Shown here piece by piece: positions 27,411 to 35,655 of a stretch of 35,655 bases of DNA; within the stretch, counting starts at the first letter, position 1, and each line of letters opens with the position of its first letter. Location of the stretch: the NCBI GenBank assembly GCA_016791115.1, contig JAEUNL010000028.1:1-35655 (forward strand), given 5' to 3'. This DNA is from Rhodocyclaceae bacterium. Lineage in GTDB: Bacteria; Pseudomonadota; Gammaproteobacteria; Burkholderiales; Rhodocyclaceae. Made by a program: the position numbers and the translations under genes. The notes beneath the pieces are model-generated. The model saw only the letters and a list, made by a program, of their open reading frames with translations. It had not been told where the DNA came from and searched no databases.

Positions 27411-28673
27411 TCAGGCGAGGATCGGTTCCGTGGCCTGCGCCTGTGCCGTCGCGAGGTAAGCCTCCATGATGCGGGTCGGGTCGTGCATCAGGTAATCCTT
27501 CCACTTGCCCAGGCGGGTGCGCGACTGGATCAATCCCCGCAGCACGCCGACATGGTCGGTCAACCCGATCGAAGTTGCACCAATCAGCACGTCACCCTTG
27601 AACTGCAGCGACAGGTAGCGGCCGCGCGCTTCATCCATCATTTCGGCGGTCTGGCCGTCGGGGTCGCCCCACCACTGGCCGAAAGACGACGAGATCAGCC
27701 CCATCGTGTCGAGCACGTTGACCGCCAGCGTCCCCTGCGACACGGCGCCCTTGCCCGCCATGTTGAGCGCGGCAACGCGAGCCTGGTCTGCGGCGTTGGG
27801 CTGGATCGCGTTCACCAGCCGCTTGCCGGTCGAGAAATCGACCGCTTCCGCAACGTCGCCTGCGGCGTAGATGCCGCCCACGTTGGTCCGCATGCGCTCG
27901 TCCACCAGCACGCCGGTGGCCACCTCGACTCCGCTGCCTTCGAGGAAGGCGACGTTGGGCTTGACGCCGGCCGACGCGATTATCAGGTCGGCCACCACCT
28001 CCTCACCGCCTGCGAGTTTCGCTACCAGCTCCTTGCCGTTCGGCGTGATCGACTCGACGCGCGCATTGCAATGCACCGATACGCCCTTGGCCTCGACCCA
28101 GCGCCGAATCATGCCGCCGGCACCGGATGTCATCATACGCGGAACCATGCGGTCGCCCATTTCGACGACGGTGAGCTTCACGCCGCGCGTGGCCAGCGCC
28201 TCGAGGATGATGCAGCCGATGAAGCCGGCACCGATCTGCAGCACGCGCGCGCCCTTCTTTGCCTTGGCGGCGATCTGGCGCGCATCGGCGAGCGTCCAGC
28301 AGGTATGCACGTTGGGTGAATCGATGCCGGGCACCGGCAGCTTCAGCGGATGCGAGCCGGTGGCGATCAGCAGCTTGTCATAGGCGACCTGCTGCCCGTT
28401 GTCAAGTGTGACGGTCTTGCCTGTCGCGTCTACCCCGACTGCACGCGCGACCACGTTCTGAATGCCATGCGCATCGAAATGCCCCGGCGTCTTGCGCAGC
28501 CAAGTGCCCTTTTCCTCGATGTTGCCTATCAGGAAATAGGGAATCGCCATGCGCGAGTATGGCGGTTCGGATTCGTCGCCGATCATGACGATCGACGCAC
28601 CGGGGTCGGCCTTGCGCAGCGTTTCCGCCGCGATCACGCCGGTTGGGCCATTGCCCAGGATCACGTAGTTCAT
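27411..28673 (-). CDS. aorC: FAD-dependent oxidoreductase subunit of aldehyde oxidoreductase (AorC type)
   Basis: Flavoprotein of 420 aa with two dinucleotide folds: the FAD site G-N-G-P-T-G at the N-terminus (MNYVILGNGPTGVIAAE) and the NAD(H) site VLQIGAGFIGCIILEAL, plus the FAD segment GGIYAAGDVAE. In the Aromatoleum AOR the matching subunit exchanges electrons with NAD+. The start at 28673 is backed by AAGGA seven bases upstream and by the family N-terminus. However, the frame stays open to an ATG at 28841, adding 56 residues with a hydrophobic head (LQLFVSFWRSVLG) and a Gly/Ala linker. That stretch has about 84% G/C at third positions, so a longer protein of 476 aa is possible. It follows aorB. 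Confidence 0.85.
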   Translation of the reverse strand: MNYVILGNGPTGVIAAETLRKADPGASIVMIGDESEPPYSRMAIPYFLIGNIEEKGTWLRKTPGHFDAHGIQNVVARAVGVDATGKTVTLDNGQQVAYDKLLIATGSHPLKLPVPGIDSPNVHTCWTLADARQIAAKAKKGARVLQIGAGFIGCIILEALATRGVKLTVVEMGDRMVPRMMTSGAGGMIRRWVEAKGVSVHCNARVESITPNGKELVAKLAGGEEVVADLIIASAGVKPNVAFLEGSGVEVATGVLVDERMRTNVGGIYAAGDVAEAVDFSTGKRLVNAIQPNAADQARVAALNMAGKGAVSQGTLAVNVLDTMGLISSSFGQWWGDPDGQTAEMMDEARGRYLSLQFKGDVLIGATSIGLTDHVGVLRGLIQSRTRLGKWKDYLMHDPTRIMEAYLATAQAQATEPILA

Positions 28674-28949
28674 GGAATCGTCCTTGCGTTTGATCTCGAT
28701 GGGCGCCTTCCCGGCGTTTGCCCCGCCGGCCGGCCCGCTGTCCGCCGTCCCGCCTGCGCCGGCGCCGGTCACTACCGCCTCGGCCTGCGTTTCATTGACG
28801 CCGAGGACGCTACGCCAGAAGGAAACGAACAGCTGCAACATGAGATCGGAACCCGTCAGTCGTGAAAATGCGCAGCAATTTGCGCGCAGTCGGAACAAGG
28901 GCGCAAGGAGACAGGCTCCGTTGCGCCCTCGCCAATCGCAAACCCGGAA

Positions 28950-30794
28950 TCAGAGCCCCAGGCGCGCGGTGGTCTCGTTGGTCGGACGACCGTCGTTGTC
29001 CCAGCCGCGGATCTTGTAGTACTCGGGCAACATCTTCGCCAATCCATTCACCAGACCCTTGGCCGGGCCGGTCTTGGCCGGCTCGTTGGTCAGGCGCGGC
29101 GGCAGGTTGTCGTCCTTCGACGTGAAACCTGCTGAGTTGTTGAACATGCGCTCCATGTTCCAGATGCGCTCGCCGACGAGGTTCAGCTTGTCCATCGACC
29201 AGTCGCCTTCCAGCGCAGCAGCGAGTTGCGGCTGCAGGTCTGCCAGCGTCCAGGCGAATGTGGTGAACACGCAAACGCCCGAAGAGTCGAACACTGCGGT
29301 CGCATCCTGGAACGCCTTGACCAGTTCCGGCTTGCCGTCCGTGGTGAGCGGATCGGTCTTGACCGGTATGCCGAGCACTTCCGAGGCCACGGTATAGCTG
29401 CGCAGGTGGCAGGCGCCGCGGTTGGACGTCGCATAGGTCAGGCCCATGCCCTGGATGCCGCGCGAATCGTAGGCCGGGAACTCCTGGCCCTTGACCGACA
29501 TCGACAGATCGGGGCGCCCGTACTTTTCGCACATGCGCTTGCTGCCGAGGCCGATCACCTTGCCGAAACCCTCGCCGCGCGCCGTCATCTCAGCGAGCTT
29601 TACCAGCGCTTCGGCAGAACCGAAGGGGGCGTCGAACCCGATCTCTTCCTTCTTGATCAGGCCTAGGTCGAACAGTTCCATCGCGGCACCGATCGTGGCG
29701 CCGAACGAGATAGGATCGAACCCGTCTTCGTTGCACAACATATTGACGTACTGCAGCGCGTCGAGGTCGCCCACGCCGTTGGCACAACCCAGCGCCCAGG
29801 CGGCTTCATACTCGAGGCCGCCGGATGCGCCCCAGTACTTCGGGTTGTTCACCACGGTGAAGTGCTTCTCGTCGAGCTTTGAGATGCGGCCGCAGGCGAT
29901 GGTGCAGCCGAAGCAGGCCTGATTGGTCACCAGATGGCTCTTGCCGTCGGGACGCTTCTCGTGCATCGCCTCGGCAGAAATCTTCGAGGCCGACTCGAAT
30001 TGCACGTCGCGGTGGTTACGCGTAGGCAACGCGCCGATCTCGTTGATCACGTTCATCAGCACCTGCGTACCGTAGGTCGGCAGACCCTGCCCGGTAACCG
30101 CGTTGTCGGCCAGCACCTTCTTCTTCTCGAAGGTGACCTTCATGAATTCCTTCGGGTCGCGGATGTTGCCCACACCCTTGGTGCCGCGTACCGCGATCGC
30201 CTTCAGGTTCTTCGAGCCCATCACGGTGCCGACGCCCGAACGCCCGGCCGCGCGGTGCAGGTCATTGACGATGCATGCGTAGAGCACGCCGTTCTCGCCC
30301 GAGCGGCCAATCGACGACACGTGGATCAGCGGATCCTGGTGCGTCTTCTTGATCGTCTCCTCGGTCTCCCAGACCGTCTTGCCCCAGAGGTGCGAAGCAT
30401 CCCGGATCTCGACCTTGTCGTCCGCGATCGAGAGATAGACGGGCTTGGGCGACTTGCCTTCGACGATGATCATGTCCCAGCCGGCGAACTTGAGTTCCGC
30501 ACCGAAGTAGCCGCCCGAGTTGGAGCAGGCGATCGCGCCGGTCAGCGGTCCTTTGGTGACGACGGAGTAACGTCCGCCGGTCGAGGCCATGGTGCCGGTC
30601 AGCGGGCCGGTGGTGAAGATCATCTTGTTCGCGGGCGACAGCGGGTCAACCTTCGGGTCGACTTCCTCGACGAAATACTTGGTCGCGAGGCCGCGCTGTC
30701 CGAGGTATTCGTCGGCCCACTTCATGTTGAGGTCTTCGACCTTGACCGTGCCCTTGGTCAGATCGATGCGCAGAAACTTGCGTGTCCATGCCAT
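28950..30794 (-). CDS. aorB: Tungsten-containing aldehyde:ferredoxin oxidoreductase, catalytic subunit
   Basis: Oxidises aldehydes to carboxylic acids, or reduces acids in reverse, at a tungsten bis-pyranopterin cofactor with one 4Fe-4S cluster; cytoplasmic. The 614-aa protein begins with the family N-terminus (KFLRIDLTKGTVKVED, GQRGLATKY). Cluster cysteines are C294, C297 and C301 (CFGCTIAC) plus distant C508, matching the spacing in Pyrococcus AOR. GRSGVGTVMGSKNLKAIAVRG and YDSRGIQGMGLTYATSNRGACH are further signatures. GGGAG precedes the ATG by seven bases. It lies 34 bp after aorA and leads into aorC, the order of the Aromatoleum enzyme. Aldehyde specificity is not readable. Confidence 0.93.
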   Translation of the reverse strand: MAWTRKFLRIDLTKGTVKVEDLNMKWADEYLGQRGLATKYFVEEVDPKVDPLSPANKMIFTTGPLTGTMASTGGRYSVVTKGPLTGAIACSNSGGYFGAELKFAGWDMIIVEGKSPKPVYLSIADDKVEIRDASHLWGKTVWETEETIKKTHQDPLIHVSSIGRSGENGVLYACIVNDLHRAAGRSGVGTVMGSKNLKAIAVRGTKGVGNIRDPKEFMKVTFEKKKVLADNAVTGQGLPTYGTQVLMNVINEIGALPTRNHRDVQFESASKISAEAMHEKRPDGKSHLVTNQACFGCTIACGRISKLDEKHFTVVNNPKYWGASGGLEYEAAWALGCANGVGDLDALQYVNMLCNEDGFDPISFGATIGAAMELFDLGLIKKEEIGFDAPFGSAEALVKLAEMTARGEGFGKVIGLGSKRMCEKYGRPDLSMSVKGQEFPAYDSRGIQGMGLTYATSNRGACHLRSYTVASEVLGIPVKTDPLTTDGKPELVKAFQDATAVFDSSGVCVFTTFAWTLADLQPQLAAALEGDWSMDKLNLVGERIWNMERMFNNSAGFTSKDDNLPPRLTNEPAKTGPAKGLVNGLAKMLPEYYKIRGWDNDGRPTNETTARLGL

Positions 30795-30828: not shown

Positions 30829-31302
30829 TCAGGCGCTGGCCTGGTTGCCGGTCTTCTCGGCCCACTGGCGCATCTTGTCCAGCCCGGTCCAGTCGGCGTC
30901 GATGTAGGTGATAGCGCCCGTCGGACAGGCTTCGGCGCAGGCCGGCTCGCCGCCGCACAGGTCGCACTTCTGCACCTTGCCGCGATCCGCCATGTAATTC
31001 ACCGTGCCGAACGGACAGGCGATGGTGCACACCTTGCAGCCGACGCAGACGTCTTCGTGCACGACCTTGGCACCGGTGTCCGCATCGAGCTTGATCGCCT
31101 CGACCGGGCAGGCATGCATGCACCAAGCTTCTGCGCACTGGGTGCAGGTGTAAGGCACCTTGCGCCCGGTGTGCTCGAAATCGAATACGCGAATGCGTGA
31201 TTTTGAAATATTGAATACGCCGTAGTTCTCGTACGAACAGGCCATTTCGCACTGACGGCAACCGGTGCACTTGACCGGGTCGATGTGCAGCGACTTTTGC
31301 AT
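30829..31302 (-). CDS. aorA: Four-cluster ferredoxin-type subunit of aldehyde oxidoreductase
   Basis: Iron-sulfur electron-transfer subunit of 157 aa with sixteen cysteines in four C-x2-C-x(2-4)-C-x3-C groups (C12/15/18/22, C53/56/61/65, C86/89/92/96, C113/116/122/126). These are enough for four 4Fe-4S clusters in the DMSO-reductase-B style fold. There is no signal peptide, so it works in the cytoplasm, linking the tungsten subunit with the flavin subunit. Related AorA proteins polymerise into electron-conducting filaments in Aromatoleum, as I recall. First gene of the operon; GAGGGG precedes the ATG at 31302, and a sigma-54-type promoter lies about 120 bp upstream. Confidence 0.92.
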   Translation of the reverse strand: MQKSLHIDPVKCTGCRQCEMACSYENYGVFNISKSRIRVFDFEHTGRKVPYTCTQCAEAWCMHACPVEAIKLDADTGAKVVHEDVCVGCKVCTIACPFGTVNYMADRGKVQKCDLCGGEPACAEACPTGAITYIDADWTGLDKMRQWAEKTGNQASA

Positions 31303-31419
31303 TACGCGTCCCCTCGGTGATCAGAGTTTGGTATCCGAATCCCGGGTTCGTCGCACGCGCAAAATACGTCCGCCGACCCCGCGATTCTTATGCTCAAGAT
31401 AGCACAAGGCAAAGCGCGA

Positions 31420-31433
31420 GCAAAAAACACACC
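31420..31433 (-). promoter_or_regulatory. Candidate sigma-54 (-24/-12) promoter of the aor operon
   Basis: The minus strand reads AGGTGTGTTTTTTGCT: GG at 31433-31432 and GC at 31421-31420 with exactly 10 bp between, and a good -12 (TTTTGCT). The -24 half is only partial. Initiation would fall near 31408, giving a leader of about 105 bases before aorA. Confidence 0.55.
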
Positions 31434-31492
31434 TGCGATTTCAAGCCTGATTTGACTCGAAAAAACGCGAGGAACAGCGAGGGAGTCAGCGA

Positions 31493-31524
31493 AGTGTGTT
31501 GCAGGAAGTAACAACGGGTGACAC
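31493..31524. promoter_or_regulatory. Candidate upstream activator site of the aor promoter
   Basis: AGTGTGT at 31493-31499, 15 bases, CGGG at 31515-31518, then TGACAC. The same AGTGTGT-N15-CGGG arrangement occurs before pedF in the same orientation and at nearly the same distance from the -24 GG (60 versus 62 bp). Centre near -100, typical for enhancer sites. Confidence 0.45.
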
Positions 31525-31536
31525 AGTCACCCGTTG
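31512..31536 (-). terminator. Perfect 11-bp palindrome after the solute-binding-protein gene
   Basis: CAACGGGTGAC and GTCACCCGTTG with a three-base loop, 10 bp beyond the stop of the preceding gene; the minus strand continues TTACTTCC, a poor U-tract. It is a likely transcript end but also overlaps the candidate activator site, so it may serve as an operator. Confidence 0.5.
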
Positions 31537-31546
31537 CACAAGCGCA

Positions 31547-32383
31547 TCAAGGCGCGCGGTACTTGACGCCGTAGCGGTCGAAGATCTTCTGGATCGTCCC
31601 GTCGGCGACGAGATCGTTGATGCCTTTCTGCAGCGCGCGAGCCAGTTCTTCGTTGCCAGCCTTCACCGCGAGGCCGAGCGGCCACTGGCGGCGGCCGATC
31701 ACCGGAATCGGCGGCTCCGAAATCTCGAAGCCCTTGCTGTTGAACAGCCCACCCTCGAGCTCGCCCTGCATCGCCATCACCGCGGCGACCTCGCCCTTTT
31801 TCAAGGCCTCGATCGCCTCGTCGGTGTTCTTGAAGTGGACGACGTTGTTGCGATACGCACCGGACTCGATCGAGAGCAACACCGTATCCGGATAGGTCGC
31901 CGATTCGACCCCGATCTTCTCGGTACGGAAAGGCGCGAGCGAGTCGAGGTTTGCAATCTTCTCCACGTTGCGTGCGATCGCGAAACGCTCGCGATAGTAC
32001 GGCGCGAAAAAAATGACTTTGTCGTTCCGGGACATGTACTCCTTGTCGACCGGCACGTGGATCATGAAGTCGGCAGGGCCATAGCCGAAGAGCGTTCCGC
32101 GCCAGACCATGTTGCGCAGGTCGTCTTCCATGTTCTCGTCGGCATCGAACCACAATTCGGCGAGCTTGACGCCCAGCTTCCCGGCCAGCGCTTTCGCGAT
32201 ATCGACGTCCACGCCCTTGCCCTCATCCGAAAAAGGCGCGAACTCCTTGTAGAGCGCAACCGAGATCTGCCCGCTTTTGACGACATCCGCGAGATCGTTG
32301 GCGCGCGCGCCCAACGGCGCGAGCGCCAGCAGCAGGACGACAATCGCGGCGCGATGCAATGCGCTACTGATCCAGAGATGCAC
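31547..32383 (-). CDS. Periplasmic solute-binding protein (ABC type, family 3-like), PedG-like
   Basis: Secreted binding protein of 278 aa with a signal peptide (MHLWISSALHRAAIVVLLLA, cleavage after GARA). The mature part has the two-lobed family pattern: ISVALYKEFAPFSDEGKGVDVDIAKALAGKL at the start, then IGVESATYPDT and IQKIFDRYGVKY at the end. No permease or ATPase gene is adjacent, so it is probably not a simple ABC importer component. Similar proteins accompany PQQ alcohol dehydrogenase and cytochrome c550 genes in Pseudomonas (pedG); their role is not settled to my knowledge. The GTG at 32383 overlaps the cytochrome gene by 20 bp, implying coupled translation. Confidence 0.82.
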   Translation of the reverse strand: MHLWISSALHRAAIVVLLLALAPLGARANDLADVVKSGQISVALYKEFAPFSDEGKGVDVDIAKALAGKLGVKLAELWFDADENMEDDLRNMVWRGTLFGYGPADFMIHVPVDKEYMSRNDKVIFFAPYYRERFAIARNVEKIANLDSLAPFRTEKIGVESATYPDTVLLSIESGAYRNNVVHFKNTDEAIEALKKGEVAAVMAMQGELEGGLFNSKGFEISEPPIPVIGRRQWPLGLAVKAGNEELARALQKGINDLVADGTIQKIFDRYGVKYRAP

Positions 32384-32801
32384 GGCGCGTCTCGATGTAG
32401 GACTTGATTGCCCAGATGGCTTCCTGGCTCAGCGTAGCCGCAAACGGTGGCATATAGACCGCACCATTGCGCACCTTGCCGGCCAGCACGGAATTGCGGA
32501 AGTAGGCATCGGTATCCGGATCGAGATCGAGCTTGCGCAAATCGGGGGCGATGCCGCCCGAAACCACTTCCAGTCCGTGGCAACGCGCGCAGTTCTGGTT
32601 GTAGGCCGATGCGCCGACCTTGATCGCCGCCGCGTCGTTGCGATACGGATTGACATCATGCCAGTCGGTGCCCAAGGGCTTGAGCGTCGACACATCCACT
32701 GCTTGCGGCGTCACGTCCCCGTGAGAAAGCGCAGCCCCCGCCACCAATGCAAGCCCTGCTCCGAAAGCCAAGCCTGCCAGAACTTTCCTTTTCCCGTTCA
32801 C
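32364..32801 (-). CDS. pedF: Cytochrome c-550, PedF type
   Basis: Secreted mono-haem c cytochrome of 145 aa that typically takes electrons from a PQQ alcohol dehydrogenase. The haem site is C71-A-R-C-H75 in YNQNCARCHGLEVVSGGIAPDL, and M117 in VYMPPF is the likely sixth ligand. HGDVTPQAVDVSTLKPLG right after the signal peptide is characteristic of PedF. The chosen GTG at 32801 (MNGKRKVLAGLAFG) has GGAG six bases upstream; the frame continues open to TTG at 32849 but that adds a non-signal leader. First gene of a two-gene operon, divergent from the sigma-54 activator. Confidence 0.9.
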   Translation of the reverse strand: MNGKRKVLAGLAFGAGLALVAGAALSHGDVTPQAVDVSTLKPLGTDWHDVNPYRNDAAAIKVGASAYNQNCARCHGLEVVSGGIAPDLRKLDLDPDTDAYFRNSVLAGKVRNGAVYMPPFAATLSQEAIWAIKSYIETRRASLDQ

Positions 32802-32950
32802 AACCGTCTCCCGTCCTTTGATACATGCAACAACGAAGGATAGCGCCAAGCTGCGCAGAATCCTTTAACTCCGCATCCCGTTAGCAGAGACCATGCCATT
32901 TCTTCGAAATTGCGTGCGCAACTTGATCGCGACGGGTATTTCCGCGCCGC

Positions 32951-32964
32951 GCAAAACAAATTCC
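32951..32964 (-). promoter_or_regulatory. Candidate sigma-54 (-24/-12) promoter of pedF
   Basis: The minus strand reads CGGAATTTGTTTTGCG: GG at 32964-32963 and GC at 32952-32951 separated by 10 bp, with a good TTTTGC -12 half. Initiation would be near 32939, about 138 bases before the pedF start. This 303-bp gap holds no gene. Confidence 0.5.
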
Positions 32965-33025
32965 GGTTTCAGGCAAACAATAGTTCCTTCGGGAGCCAAA
33001 AACCCCATGCCCATCCCTTTTCTTT

Positions 33026-33056
33026 AGTGTGTCCAAATGCTACATTTCGGGACACT
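33026..33056. promoter_or_regulatory. 31-bp dyad, candidate activator site between pedF and its regulator
   Basis: AGTGTGTCCAAATG, CTA, CATTTCGGGACACT: a near-palindrome matching at 11 of 14 positions, with perfect inner AAATG/CATTT and outer AGTGT/ACACT arms. It lies 62 bp upstream of the pedF -24 GG and about 50 bp before the activator start, so it could also mediate autoregulation. Confidence 0.55.
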
Positions 33057-33104
33057 CCGCATGCCACTTACCAATAATTACGCGGAGATCTCCAGGAGGG
33101 GAAC

Positions 33105-35087
33105 ATGGCATCGGTCCTACGCGGCGAGCAGGAATCGGGCGCTGCACAAAACGTCGAGATCGATCTCGGCAGTGCAACAATTCTGACACCGCAAACCATC
33201 GCGAAATCGTGGGATCGCTGCCGTGCCTACGGTCTCGACTTGTCGCAGTCGCCCGATTTCGGCCCGATACGTTCGGATTTCCTGAGCGAGGAACTCGAAC
33301 GGAACCACAACCTCGTTTCGCACGCCCTGCCGGTCCTAGAAACGCTGTACCAGCAGCTCTCGGGCACGCACAGCATGGTCGTGCTGACCGACGAGCAGGG
33401 GCTGATCCTCGATTCGCTCGGCGACAGCGATTTTCTCGAACGCGCCCAGCGTGTGGCGCTGCAGCCTGGCGTAACTTGGTCCGAGGACAGCCGGGGCACG
33501 AATGCGATCGGTACCGCATTGATCGAGCGCTCGCCGATCTGCGTCAATGGCGCGGAGCATTTCCTGCGCGCGAACCAGTTCCTCACCTGTTCGGCAGTCC
33601 CGATATCCGACCCGCGCGGCAAGCTGGTCGGCGTGCTCGACGTGACCGGCGATCATCGCGGCTACAGCAGCCACACCATCGCGCTGGTCAAGATGTCGGC
33701 GCAGATGATCGAGAACCACCTGTTCTCGGATGCGTTCCCCGAAGGCATCGCAATCCACATGCACGGCCGCCCGGAATTCCTCGGTACGCTGTGCGAAGGC
33801 ATCGTCTGCTTCTCGCCCGACGGCGAGTTCATCACGGCCAACCGCAGCGCCTGCTCGATGCTGGGACGCAGCCTGGCGGACCTGCGCACGCACTCATTCT
33901 CCACGCTGTTCGGCAACCGCATCCAGAGCGTACTCGATCAGGCGCTGGCGCAGGGCGACGTTCCGCTGCGGCTGTCGCTGAGTTCGGGCACGCCGGTGCT
34001 GGGCCGCGTCCGCATCGGCGCGCGCGCGCGCCGGCCGATGCGCATCTTCACCTTCGACCGCAAGGGCACCGCGCAGCGCGATGCCGGAGACCAGCGCCCG
34101 ATACCCGGCGTTGGCGCCCTGGACGGCCTGATGACCGGCGACGCGCAGATCGAGGCGGTATGCAACAAGGTCCGCCGCGTACTCGGCCGCGACATCACCA
34201 TCCTCATTCAGGGCGAGACCGGCACCGGCAAGGAGCTGATCGCCAACGCCATCCATGAAGATAGCCCGCGCGCCAACGCGCCCTTCGTGGCAGTCAACTG
34301 CGCCTCGATTCCGGATACTCTGATCGAATCGGAACTGTTCGGCTACGAGGAAGGCGCCTTCACCGGCGCCAAGCGCAAGGGCAACGTCGGCAAAATCCTG
34401 CAGGCCGACGGCGGCACGCTGTTCCTGGACGAAATCGGAGACATGCCGCTCAACCTGCAGGCGCGGCTGCTGCGCGTGCTGCAGGAACGCAAGGTCACGC
34501 CGCTGGGCAGCATCAAGTCCTACCCGGTGGACATCGCGATCGTCTGTGCCACCAATCGCAAGCTGCGCGACATGGTCTCTCGCGGCGAATTCCGCGAGGA
34601 TCTGTACTACCGTCTCAACGGCCTGACCGTCAACCTGCCGCCGCTGCGCACCCGCAGCGACATCCGCACCGTCGTTGAACGCATTCTGCGCAAGGAAGCG
34701 CCCGCCGGCAGCAGACCCCGCGTCGATGACGAAGTGATGCGGATGTTCCTGCGCCATCCCTGGCCGGGCAACCTGCGCCAGCTCACCTGCCTGTTGCGCA
34801 CCGCCCTGGTGATGGCCGACGAGGACGGGGAAATCCGCCGCGAGCACCTGCCGGACGACTTCCTCGACGAATTGATCGAACCGCCACCACGCGGCGAGCC
34901 CCGGCCGCAGGCAACCGGCACGGCAGCCGCCGGCGATTCCCACGCCAGCTTCAGCGACCGCCTCGACGACCTGGAACTGCAGGCGATCCGCGAAGCGCTG
35001 GAGAAACATCGCGGCAATGTATCGGCCGCCTCGCGCCAGCTTGGCATCAGCCGCAACACCATCTACCGCAAGATGAAAAGCCTTTAG
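33105..35087 (+). CDS. Sigma-54-dependent transcriptional activator (AcoR-like, GAF-AAA+-Fis)
   Basis: Enhancer-binding protein of 660 aa that remodels sigma-54 RNA polymerase. Domains in order: an N-terminal GAF-type sensor (about 75-205, with [15 protein letters not shown] and [16 protein letters not shown] as in AcoR), a PAS-like segment (about 223-300), the AAA+ domain, and a C-terminal Fis-type helix-turn-helix ([20 protein letters not shown]). The AAA+ domain has Walker A GETGTGKE (370-377), the sigma-54-contacting GAFTGA loop (417-422) and Walker [11 protein letters not shown] (437-446). AGGAGGGG lies just before the ATG. It has no receiver domain, so a small molecule is the probable signal. 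It sits between the PQQ dehydrogenase and pedF, opposite strand, suggesting alcohol or aldehyde sensing. Confidence 0.92.
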
Positions 35088-35157
35088 AACGGCGCCGCAC
35101 GCCCGATCGGCGCCGCAGCCGGGCCTGGCCGCCGCCCGGCCGAGACTTTTCCCGCGC

Positions 35158-35186
35158 AAAAAAAACCGGCGCACCAGGCGCCGGTT
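35158..35186 (-). terminator. Intrinsic terminator of the PQQ dehydrogenase gene
   Basis: A 9-bp perfect stem (AACCGGCGC 35164-35172 with GCGCCGGTT 35178-35186) is followed on the minus strand by a run of eight T, 50 bp past the stop. It may also end plus-strand transcription from the activator gene. Confidence 0.85.
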
Positions 35187-35235
35187 GATGTCGCTCGAAC
35201 CTAACTGAGCGCAGGAGGAGGAGTCTGAAGCCGAC

Positions 35236-35655
35236 TCAACCCTTGTGCAGCTTGAATACCCACATCGAACCGCCCTGGTTGAGGAAGTTGACCTTCTTGG
35301 CCACGTCCCCGCCCCACAGCGGCACCGCGCCGCCCCAGCCGGCCGCCACACCGACGTACTGCTCGCCATCCTGATCCCAGGTGATCGGCGGCGCAACGAT
35401 GCCGGTACCGACGTTGAACGACCAGACTTCCTTGCCGGTCTTGGCATCGGCCGCCTTGAGGAACCCCTCCGGCGTGCCCCAGAACACCAGGCCGCCCTTG
35501 GTCGTCAGCACGCCACCCCACAGCGGCGCGTTGTTGGTGACTTCCCATTCCATCTTGCCGGTCTTCGGGTCGAAGGCGCGCAGCGCGCCGATGTACTTGT
35601 CGTCGATCGTCTTGATGGTGAAACCGGCGCCCAGGTAGGCCGCGCCCTTCTTGTA
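35236..35655 (-). CDS. PQQ-dependent alcohol dehydrogenase, C-terminal fragment (cut by window edge)
   Basis: Only the last 139 residues are visible; the frame is open to the window end, so the gene continues beyond it. [45 protein letters not shown] and [22 protein letters not shown] are tryptophan-docking propeller repeats of type I quinoprotein alcohol dehydrogenases (ExaA, PedE, methanol dehydrogenase). [11 protein letters not shown] is the usual final signature. The enzyme oxidises alcohols to aldehydes in the periplasm using PQQ, passing electrons to a c-type cytochrome such as the PedF-like protein encoded 2.4 kb away. Whether it is calcium or lanthanide dependent cannot be judged because the metal site lies outside the window. 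Confidence 0.9.

Follow-up and report, generated by a model that had tools for sequence, protein, structure and literature searches.

A sigma-54 activator and a recurring 17-bp dyad may join alcohol and aldehyde oxidation in a Rhodocyclaceae bacterium

Control of aldehyde oxidoreductase (AOR) by a sigma-54 activator has been predicted in Clostridiales. In the available part of that study, the activator, AorR, is assigned TGT-ACA dyads and is tied to alcohol synthesis, with alcohol dehydrogenases under activators of their own, AdhR and others (PMC6615313). Thus, the kind of system described here is already known. A three-subunit enzyme, AorABC, is described from Aromatoleum aromaticum, and the words regulator, promoter, sigma, and aorR are absent from the text of that paper (PMC6365974). 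In Pseudomonas, the ped cluster brings a pyrroloquinoline quinone (PQQ) dehydrogenase, PedF, and PedG together as one functional module; the controls named in the passages on regulation at hand are the histidine-kinase systems PedS1 and EraSR, and in the text as a whole AcoR and RpoN are absent and sigma54 is mentioned once (PMC12997753). Finally, BmoR of Thauera butanivorans is, in the sections available, an alcohol-responsive sigma-54 activator with an inverted repeat 193 bp from the -24/-12 promoter, a repeat that can be deleted in E. coli without losing activation, and its target is an alkane monooxygenase (PMC6366067, PMC8899819). Here, we analyze 35,655 nucleotides of a Rhodocyclaceae bacterium (the window; assembly GCA_016791115.1, contig JAEUNL010000028.1, contig C30 of a 3.97-Mb, 73-contig genome). 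The minus strand of the locus carries aorC, aorB, aorA, a periplasmic binding protein gene, and pedF, for cytochrome c-550, a probable partner of alcohol oxidation, and the plus strand carries a regulator with GAF, AAA, and helix-turn-helix (HTH) domains and the motif GAFTGA. We consider it likely that this one sigma-54 activator binds 17-bp dyads upstream of pedF and aorA and drives both, linking alcohol oxidation to aldehyde oxidation.

The window resembles each of these systems in part. Its AOR has the three subunits of the A. aromaticum enzyme, and its PQQ dehydrogenase, pedF, and binding protein recall the Pseudomonas module, to which it adds an adjacent one-component sigma-54 activator and the AOR itself. 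Unlike clostridial AorR, the locus couples AOR to cytochrome c-550 and an alcohol dehydrogenase of the PQQ type. The likeness to BmoR, as described, lies in its activator and distant repeat. Among the literature matches listed, which covered few subscription papers, neither a sigma-54 link between PQQ alcohol oxidation and AOR nor this dyad was found beyond the clostridial AorR prediction, and what appears new among those matches is the pairing with PQQ alcohol oxidation and the dyad itself.

The regulator is predicted to be a bacterial enhancer-binding protein. Its AAA+ domain (PF00158, 231 bits) contains both the Walker A motif GETGTGKE and the sigma-54 contact motif GAFTGA, a Fis-type HTH lies at its C terminus (PF02954, residues 620 to 658), and rpoN is encoded in the same genome (PF04552, 220.5 bits, on contig C63). 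An earlier note, made from the letters of the window, had reported an AcoR-like sigma-54 activator encoded alongside the two operons, and the domain architecture bears this out. The GAF-AAA-HTH architecture is that of AcoR and is all that the term AcoR-like denotes here; among the 25 NCBIfam models listed, none scored above its cut-off.

The dyad was found by unguided search. A 17-bp sequence of the form TGT-N11-ACA (about TGTTnCAAATTGnAACA) recurs in relatives upstream of pedF, the PQQ alcohol dehydrogenase gene, and aorA. From 30 regions upstream of -24/-12 sequences, three of them from the genome of the window, the search returned TGTTnCATTTTGnnACA at 14.4 bits, compared with 9.0 to 9.6 bits in 12 shuffles. 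When that genome was left out (27 regions), the motif reached 15.2 bits versus 10.0 to 10.5 bits in 8 shuffles, and its two best matches on both strands of the window were the aorA and pedF sites. Both searches retained L123 and L127 of the eight loci set apart as genus g6. A palindromic matrix was then built from 21 sites of relatives only, omitting 9 of the 30 search rows (six low-scoring, three from the genome of the window). The dyads head the window (Table 1), and the next non-overlapping match to the 21-site matrix scores 9.8 bits. The two pedF dyads are shifted against each other by 10 bp, close to a full turn of the helix.

In 137,631 bases of other loci in this genome, one position reaches the score of the aorA dyad. 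A 17.6-bit match on contig C60 (35357) was set aside, as it falls where a coding frame ends and is without a -24/-12 sequence. A loose pattern for this genome was useless, with 1,197 matches, and a tighter one gave 15 matches versus 14 in the reversed control; thus, letters alone do not define a regulon. Among the 14 places found with the tighter pattern, only aorA, pedF, and the dehydrogenase gene of contig C53 have a -24/-12 sequence of at least 9 bits nearby. The C53 dehydrogenase promoter combines a 13.0-bit dyad with a 14.7-bit -24/-12 sequence.

A different element had been proposed in the earlier note, namely AGTGTGT-N15-CGGG upstream of both operons, beginning 60 and 62 bp from GG-N10-GC candidates at 31433-31420 and 32964-32951. 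Letters, positions, and distances are as claimed: the element lies on the plus strand at 31493-31518 and 33026-33051, its sole exact matches in the 3.97-Mb genome, although it was itself defined from those two places. One could suppose from the exact common letters and matched spacing that this element is the activator site and that pedF is transcribed from 32964. In dinucleotide shuffles of both 150-bp regions, however, some common 11-base two-block word of any tested split appeared in 87 of 1,000 and the 4+7 split found here in 23 of 1,000, and a search of 73 relative loci, 886,885 bases in all and with a regulator homologue in the fetched stretch of 31, did not find the element once. Moreover, its CGGG parts belong to different structures, at aorA to the 11-bp stem of the hairpin at 31512-31536 and at pedF to the dyad, and the candidate at 32964 is far weaker than a site closer to pedF (see below). 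We conclude from the shuffle frequency and the lack of conservation that AGTGTGT-N15-CGGG is not the activator element, and we regard that version as extremely improbable. The claimed elements do overlap the 17-bp dyads at both operons, in different registers, and it is the overlapping dyad that shows the conservation they lack, at pedF and, less completely, at aorA.

Predicted sigma-54 promoters, with GG-N10-GC in a -24/-12 context, are strong at pedF and moderate at aorA. Scores come from a simple matrix whose weights we set from the consensus TGGCACG-N4-TTGCA. The aorA candidate of the earlier note stands, at 9.3 bits the best in its intergenic region, and that score or better is reached at about 16 of about 71,000 window positions on both strands. 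The pedF candidate at 32964 reaches 4.4 bits and gives way to a 15.7-bit site 67 bp nearer the gene (32898-32883). With this correction the matched spacing is lost: the distance from the start of the upstream dyad to the -24/-12 16-mer is 79 bp at aorA and 156 bp at pedF. A site scoring at least 12 bits lies 44 to 104 bp before the extrapolated start in 20 of 21 pedF copies of at least 47% identity, the window included, and 152 to 184 bp before the first aligned residue (not the start codon) in all 15 dehydrogenases of at least 60% identity; several of these loci belong to one genus, and the counts omit three pedF paralogue rows below 47% and dehydrogenase rows below 60%. Single GG-N10-GC matches are common, and both operons could in principle be independent of sigma-54, with these sequences and the dyads present by chance. 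The rank of the dyads and their recurrence in the motif searches, the 21-site matrix, and the held-out set described below argue otherwise, and we judge such chance very unlikely.

Recurrence with the regulator was examined in a first set of 33 relative loci and in a held-out set of 40, the latter taken from those listed among 159 genomes with aorB, several per genus, and picked before their upstream DNA was seen. Throughout, "without regulator" means that none lies in the fetched stretch, and among the 12 first-set genomes so classed, 3 (G029, G036, and G016) have a homologue of 46 to 49% identity elsewhere. In the first set, aorA is preceded at 60 to 140 bp by a -24/-12 sequence of at least 9 bits in 7 of 17 loci with regulator versus 0 of 12 without (one aorA row of 29%, L049, is omitted from the aorA counts); some of the regulator-linked relatives have sigma-54-like sites 66 to 114 bp ahead of aorA. 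With a dyad matrix trained on dehydrogenase sites only, Mann-Whitney comparison of aorA regions with and without regulator gave 0.022 for the dyad, and the same comparison gave 0.036 for the -24/-12 sequence. When that dehydrogenase-site matrix was transferred to the other genes (best score in 300 bp versus 100 shuffles, p 0.05), 14 of 21 pedF regions passed, some at implausible distances. In the held-out set, a dyad of at least 14 bits with a downstream -24/-12 sequence of at least 12 bits was present at 5 of the 9 regulator loci, all five having the pair upstream of pedF, but at 0 of the 30 loci that had no regulator (Fisher 2.2e-4); at 12 bits for both, the counts were 8 of 9 and 0 of 30. 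One further held-out locus has a degraded regulator and no such pair. Upstream of the held-out aorA genes, a -24/-12 sequence of at least 7 bits, a cut-off chosen afterwards, occurs within 40 to 150 bp in 5 of 9 loci with regulator versus 1 of 29 without (the sequence of L171 did not reach far enough to be scored at aorA), and in none of the three g6 loci. The two no-regulator loci of the first set whose aorA regions passed the transfer test, L107 and L119 (genomes G036 and G016), show a dyad-like match there; we noticed afterwards that their genomes are among those with the homologue elsewhere.

Several points weigh against one activator for both operons. TGT-ACA dyads are common to such activators (PMC6615313), the shuffle controls of the motif searches were given 150 seeds versus 600 and 500 in the real runs, and expectation-maximization (EM) applied to 27 aorA regions without regulator found a different motif at 13.0 bits. 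Related genomes are not independent and thus inflate motif scores, an inflation from which the ranking within the window is free. The thresholds of the held-out pairing were set after a first look, and the set was held out by genome, not by genus. Four of the nine held-out regulator loci are without a strict pair, and L157 fails the looser threshold as well. Most of the remaining points concern aorA. Its -24/-12 sequence in the window is moderate, the transfer test separated aorA regions modestly (7 of 17 with regulator versus 2 of 12 without), and in none of the 9 held-out regulator loci do the 300 bp before aorA contain a dyad reaching 12 bits. In genus g6, where the regulator is adjacent, aorA was searched for a -24/-12 sequence and had none, and its dyad is weak (7.4 to 11.6 bits).

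Perhaps, then, the regulator controls pedF and the dehydrogenase, while aorA is transcribed from a promoter of another kind or by polymerase reading through from pedF and has kept its dyad as a relic. Its presence at aorA in part of the regulator-linked relatives, together with the held-out and g6 results and the moderate promoter, fits a relic. Across the 35.6 kb of the window, however, only the pedF dyad rivals that of aorA, the sigma-70 scan list holds no aorA site, and a stable hairpin separates the genes, and we think a relic unlikely. Because no held-out regulator locus shows the aorA dyad, the evidence for its combination with a -24/-12 sequence comes from the window plus L101, L115, L120, and L129, four relatives; the held-out data thus confirm the pedF module and the aorA -24/-12 sites but not the aorA dyad. 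The proposal of the earlier note that one activator co-controls alcohol and aldehyde oxidation is accordingly supported by the comparative evidence, less strongly at aorA than at pedF and the dehydrogenase gene, and the element, its register, and the pedF -24/-12 sequence on which it was built are not.

The dyads might also be bound by another activator. The genome encodes a paralogue of 46% identity on contig C60 and other activators, a further point against assigning the sites to the regulator of the window, as well as an 87%-identical copy on contig C53. The last 45 residues, and with them the HTH, are identical in the C53 copy, which would therefore be expected to bind the same sites. Across relatives, however, paired sites accompany the adjacent orthologue, and cross-talk from C53 would extend control by one activator of this kind rather than contradict it. 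We rate a different activator as quite unlikely.

Control of both operons by the regulator of the window could proceed as follows. A ligand, probably an alcohol or aldehyde, would act on the GAF region; hexamers would form on the TGT-N11-ACA dyads that the regulator is predicted to bind upstream of pedF and aorA; and DNA looping would bring them to the closed complex. Sigma-54 RNA polymerase would then be activated at the promoters of pedF and the binding protein gene, of aorABC, and of the dehydrogenase gene, and the cell would likely induce alcohol oxidation in the periplasm along with aldehyde oxidation in the cytoplasm. What was observed is the dyads, the -24/-12 sequences, a GAFTGA regulator, rpoN, partial synteny, and the recurrence of dyad plus -24/-12 sequence with the regulator. 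Because the same kind of dyad stands at both operons and recurs in several relatives with the activator gene, a single activator would likely switch on both steps from alcohol to acid. The regulator may also control itself, since a weak sigma-70-like promoter match of its own gene (33049-33078) has a -35 that falls within the pedF dyad 33038-33054 in part; matches of that kind are about as many in shuffles.

The regulator family extends beyond AOR. A scan of named genomes gave 33 relatives of the regulator, all of at most 56% identity. In 10 of 10 Methylotenera-type loci (nine Methylotenera and one uncultured; L030, L032-L037, and L039-L041), whose regulators are 45 to 49% identical, a dyad of at least 16 bits lies 134 to 160 bp before a -24/-12 sequence of at least 16 bits. 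The target is a PQQ dehydrogenase in nine; the contig of the tenth is short, with none visible. Of the 23 other relatives, 14 have no dyad of at least 14 bits, and the two with a dehydrogenase nearby (L014 and L020) both have a paired site beside it. The Methylotenera-type regulator is a candidate controller of lanthanide-type enzymes.

Loss of the sigma-54 contact may have occurred at two loci. In L110, which has masked bases, and L181, the regulator adjoining aorA is without GAFTGA, the dyads beside aorA are near-perfect and score with the highest in the analysis (19.4 bits by the dehydrogenase-trained matrix and 22.8 bits by the full one), and no -24/-12 sequence was found near aorA in L110 (4780-5030) or L181 (5560-5900). 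These two loci, the only such cases, possibly represent a switch away from sigma-54.

The genes and sites of the window are listed in Table 1.

Table 1. Genes, predicted sites, and structures of the window, in order of position
Feature	Position	Strand	Evidence and remarks
aorC, flavin adenine dinucleotide (FAD) subunit	27411..28898	-	PF07992; start probably 28673
aorB, tungsten-enzyme large subunit	28950..30794	-	PF02730, PF01314; best solved relative 8c0z, 1125.6 bits
aorA, iron-sulfur (Fe-S) subunit	30829..31302	-	Fer4-type domains; synteny with aorB and aorC
aorA -24/-12 candidate AGGTGTGTTTTTTGCT	31419..31434	-	9.3 bits, best in intergenic region
aorA upstream dyad TGTTACTTCCTGCAACA (TGT-N11-ACA)	31497..31513	-	Rank 2 of 35,639, 16.7 bits; rank 1 with matrix excluding the window's genome
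11-bp perfect hairpin, 3-nt loop, between binding protein gene and aorA	31512..31536	-	Fold z -4.2; no T run
PedG/MoxJ-like periplasmic binding protein	31547..32383	-	PF00497
pedF, cytochrome c-550	32364..32801	-	TIGR04494; open frame extends to 32849
pedF -24/-12 TGGCATGGTCTCTGCT	32883..32898	-	15.7 bits, top sigma-54 match of window
Second overlapping pedF dyad TGTAGCATTTGGACACA	33028..33044	-	Rank 3, 12.4 bits; also rank 3 with matrix excluding the window's genome
pedF upstream dyad TGTCCCGAAATGTAGCA	33038..33054	-	Rank 1 of window, 18.0 bits; rank 2 with matrix excluding the window's genome
Sigma-54 activator	33105..35087	+	GAF, AAA+ with GAFTGA, Fis-type HTH; PF01590, PF00158, PF02954; AcoR-like architecture
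PQQ alcohol dehydrogenase, C-terminal end, truncated by contig end	35236..35655	-	TIGR03075

Gene assignments differ in their firmness. The pedF product passes TIGR04494 (199 bits versus a cut-off of 122), which identifies it as PedF cytochrome c-550, and we infer its start to be the GTG at 32801. The binding protein falls short of TIGR03871 (MoxJ/PedG), at 43 of 212 bits, and so is named PedG-like by position and solute-binding-protein (SBP) fold only. The aorA, aorB, and aorC genes lie side by side as expected for a three-subunit bacterial AOR; the start of aorC is placed downstream in its frame because family matches begin near residue 76. The order dehydrogenase-regulator-pedF-binding protein-aorABC is complete in 6 of 33 relative loci of the first set (L120, L121, L122, L123, L125, and L130), five of them in genus g6, and the remaining relatives have partial or rearranged versions or aorABC alone. 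The hairpin between the binding protein gene and aorA is very stable, touches the aorA dyad, and is absent from the terminator scan list of the window; it is possibly the end of the pedF transcript.

Other features of these loci were seen in passing. The dehydrogenase-regulator pair occurs twice in the genome, in the window at 33105-35655 and on contig C53 (L048, 16257-19890), with regulators 84% identical in DNA and dehydrogenase ends 88% identical; contig ends truncate the dehydrogenase of the window and the regulator of C53. In g6 loci L121-L123, L125, and L130, a long palindrome of the type GTGTTCAGGTGTCCAG...GGACACCTGAACAC lies about 180 bp upstream of aorA, with a variant in L106 and L126, and the weak g6 dyad sits inside it. 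An unguided search of the 27 aorA upstream regions without regulator gave the common motif TGTTGCnnTGCAGCATC, which could point to another regulator of aor or simply reflect kinship among the genomes.

The enzymes are inferred to use tungsten and lanthanides. AorB is closest to 8c0z, which is named as tungsten-containing and which we take to be the A. aromaticum AOR. The PQQ dehydrogenase of contig C53 has the motif WDYDG, in which a second Asp two residues after the catalytic Asp is the mark of the lanthanide type, and its best solved match is 6zcw, presumably PedH (825 bits versus 648 for 1flg), which suggests a lanthanide enzyme; the copy in the window ends at the contig boundary before that position. 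The same motif was present in three of three Methylotenera-type dehydrogenases examined. Eight loci (L106, L121-L123, L125-L127, and L130) carry a second PQQ dehydrogenase, divergent to the WDYDG one, with the calcium-type motif WDFSG.

Together, a 17-bp site, two promoters, one of them corrected, and a named regulator make up a testable regulon. It would link the oxidation of alcohols in the periplasm, probably by a lanthanide-dependent enzyme, with that of aldehydes by a tungsten enzyme in the cytoplasm. It also suggests how bacterial AORs of three subunits may be controlled, as the characterizing paper names no regulator or promoter for them (PMC6365974). In Methylotenera relatives, it points to a candidate controller of lanthanide-type dehydrogenases, and the GAFTGA-less loci may serve as a natural experiment on leaving sigma-54. 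We speculate, with somewhat less than even confidence, that lanthanide-type PQQ alcohol dehydrogenases of Burkholderiales have long been controlled by one family of sigma-54 activators, which has a 17-bp dyad of its own, and that tungsten AOR was drawn into the regulon of this family in some lineages, putting a two-metal pathway from alcohol to acid under one switch. Perhaps, a side branch lost GAFTGA, keeps the aor dyad, and works without sigma-54.

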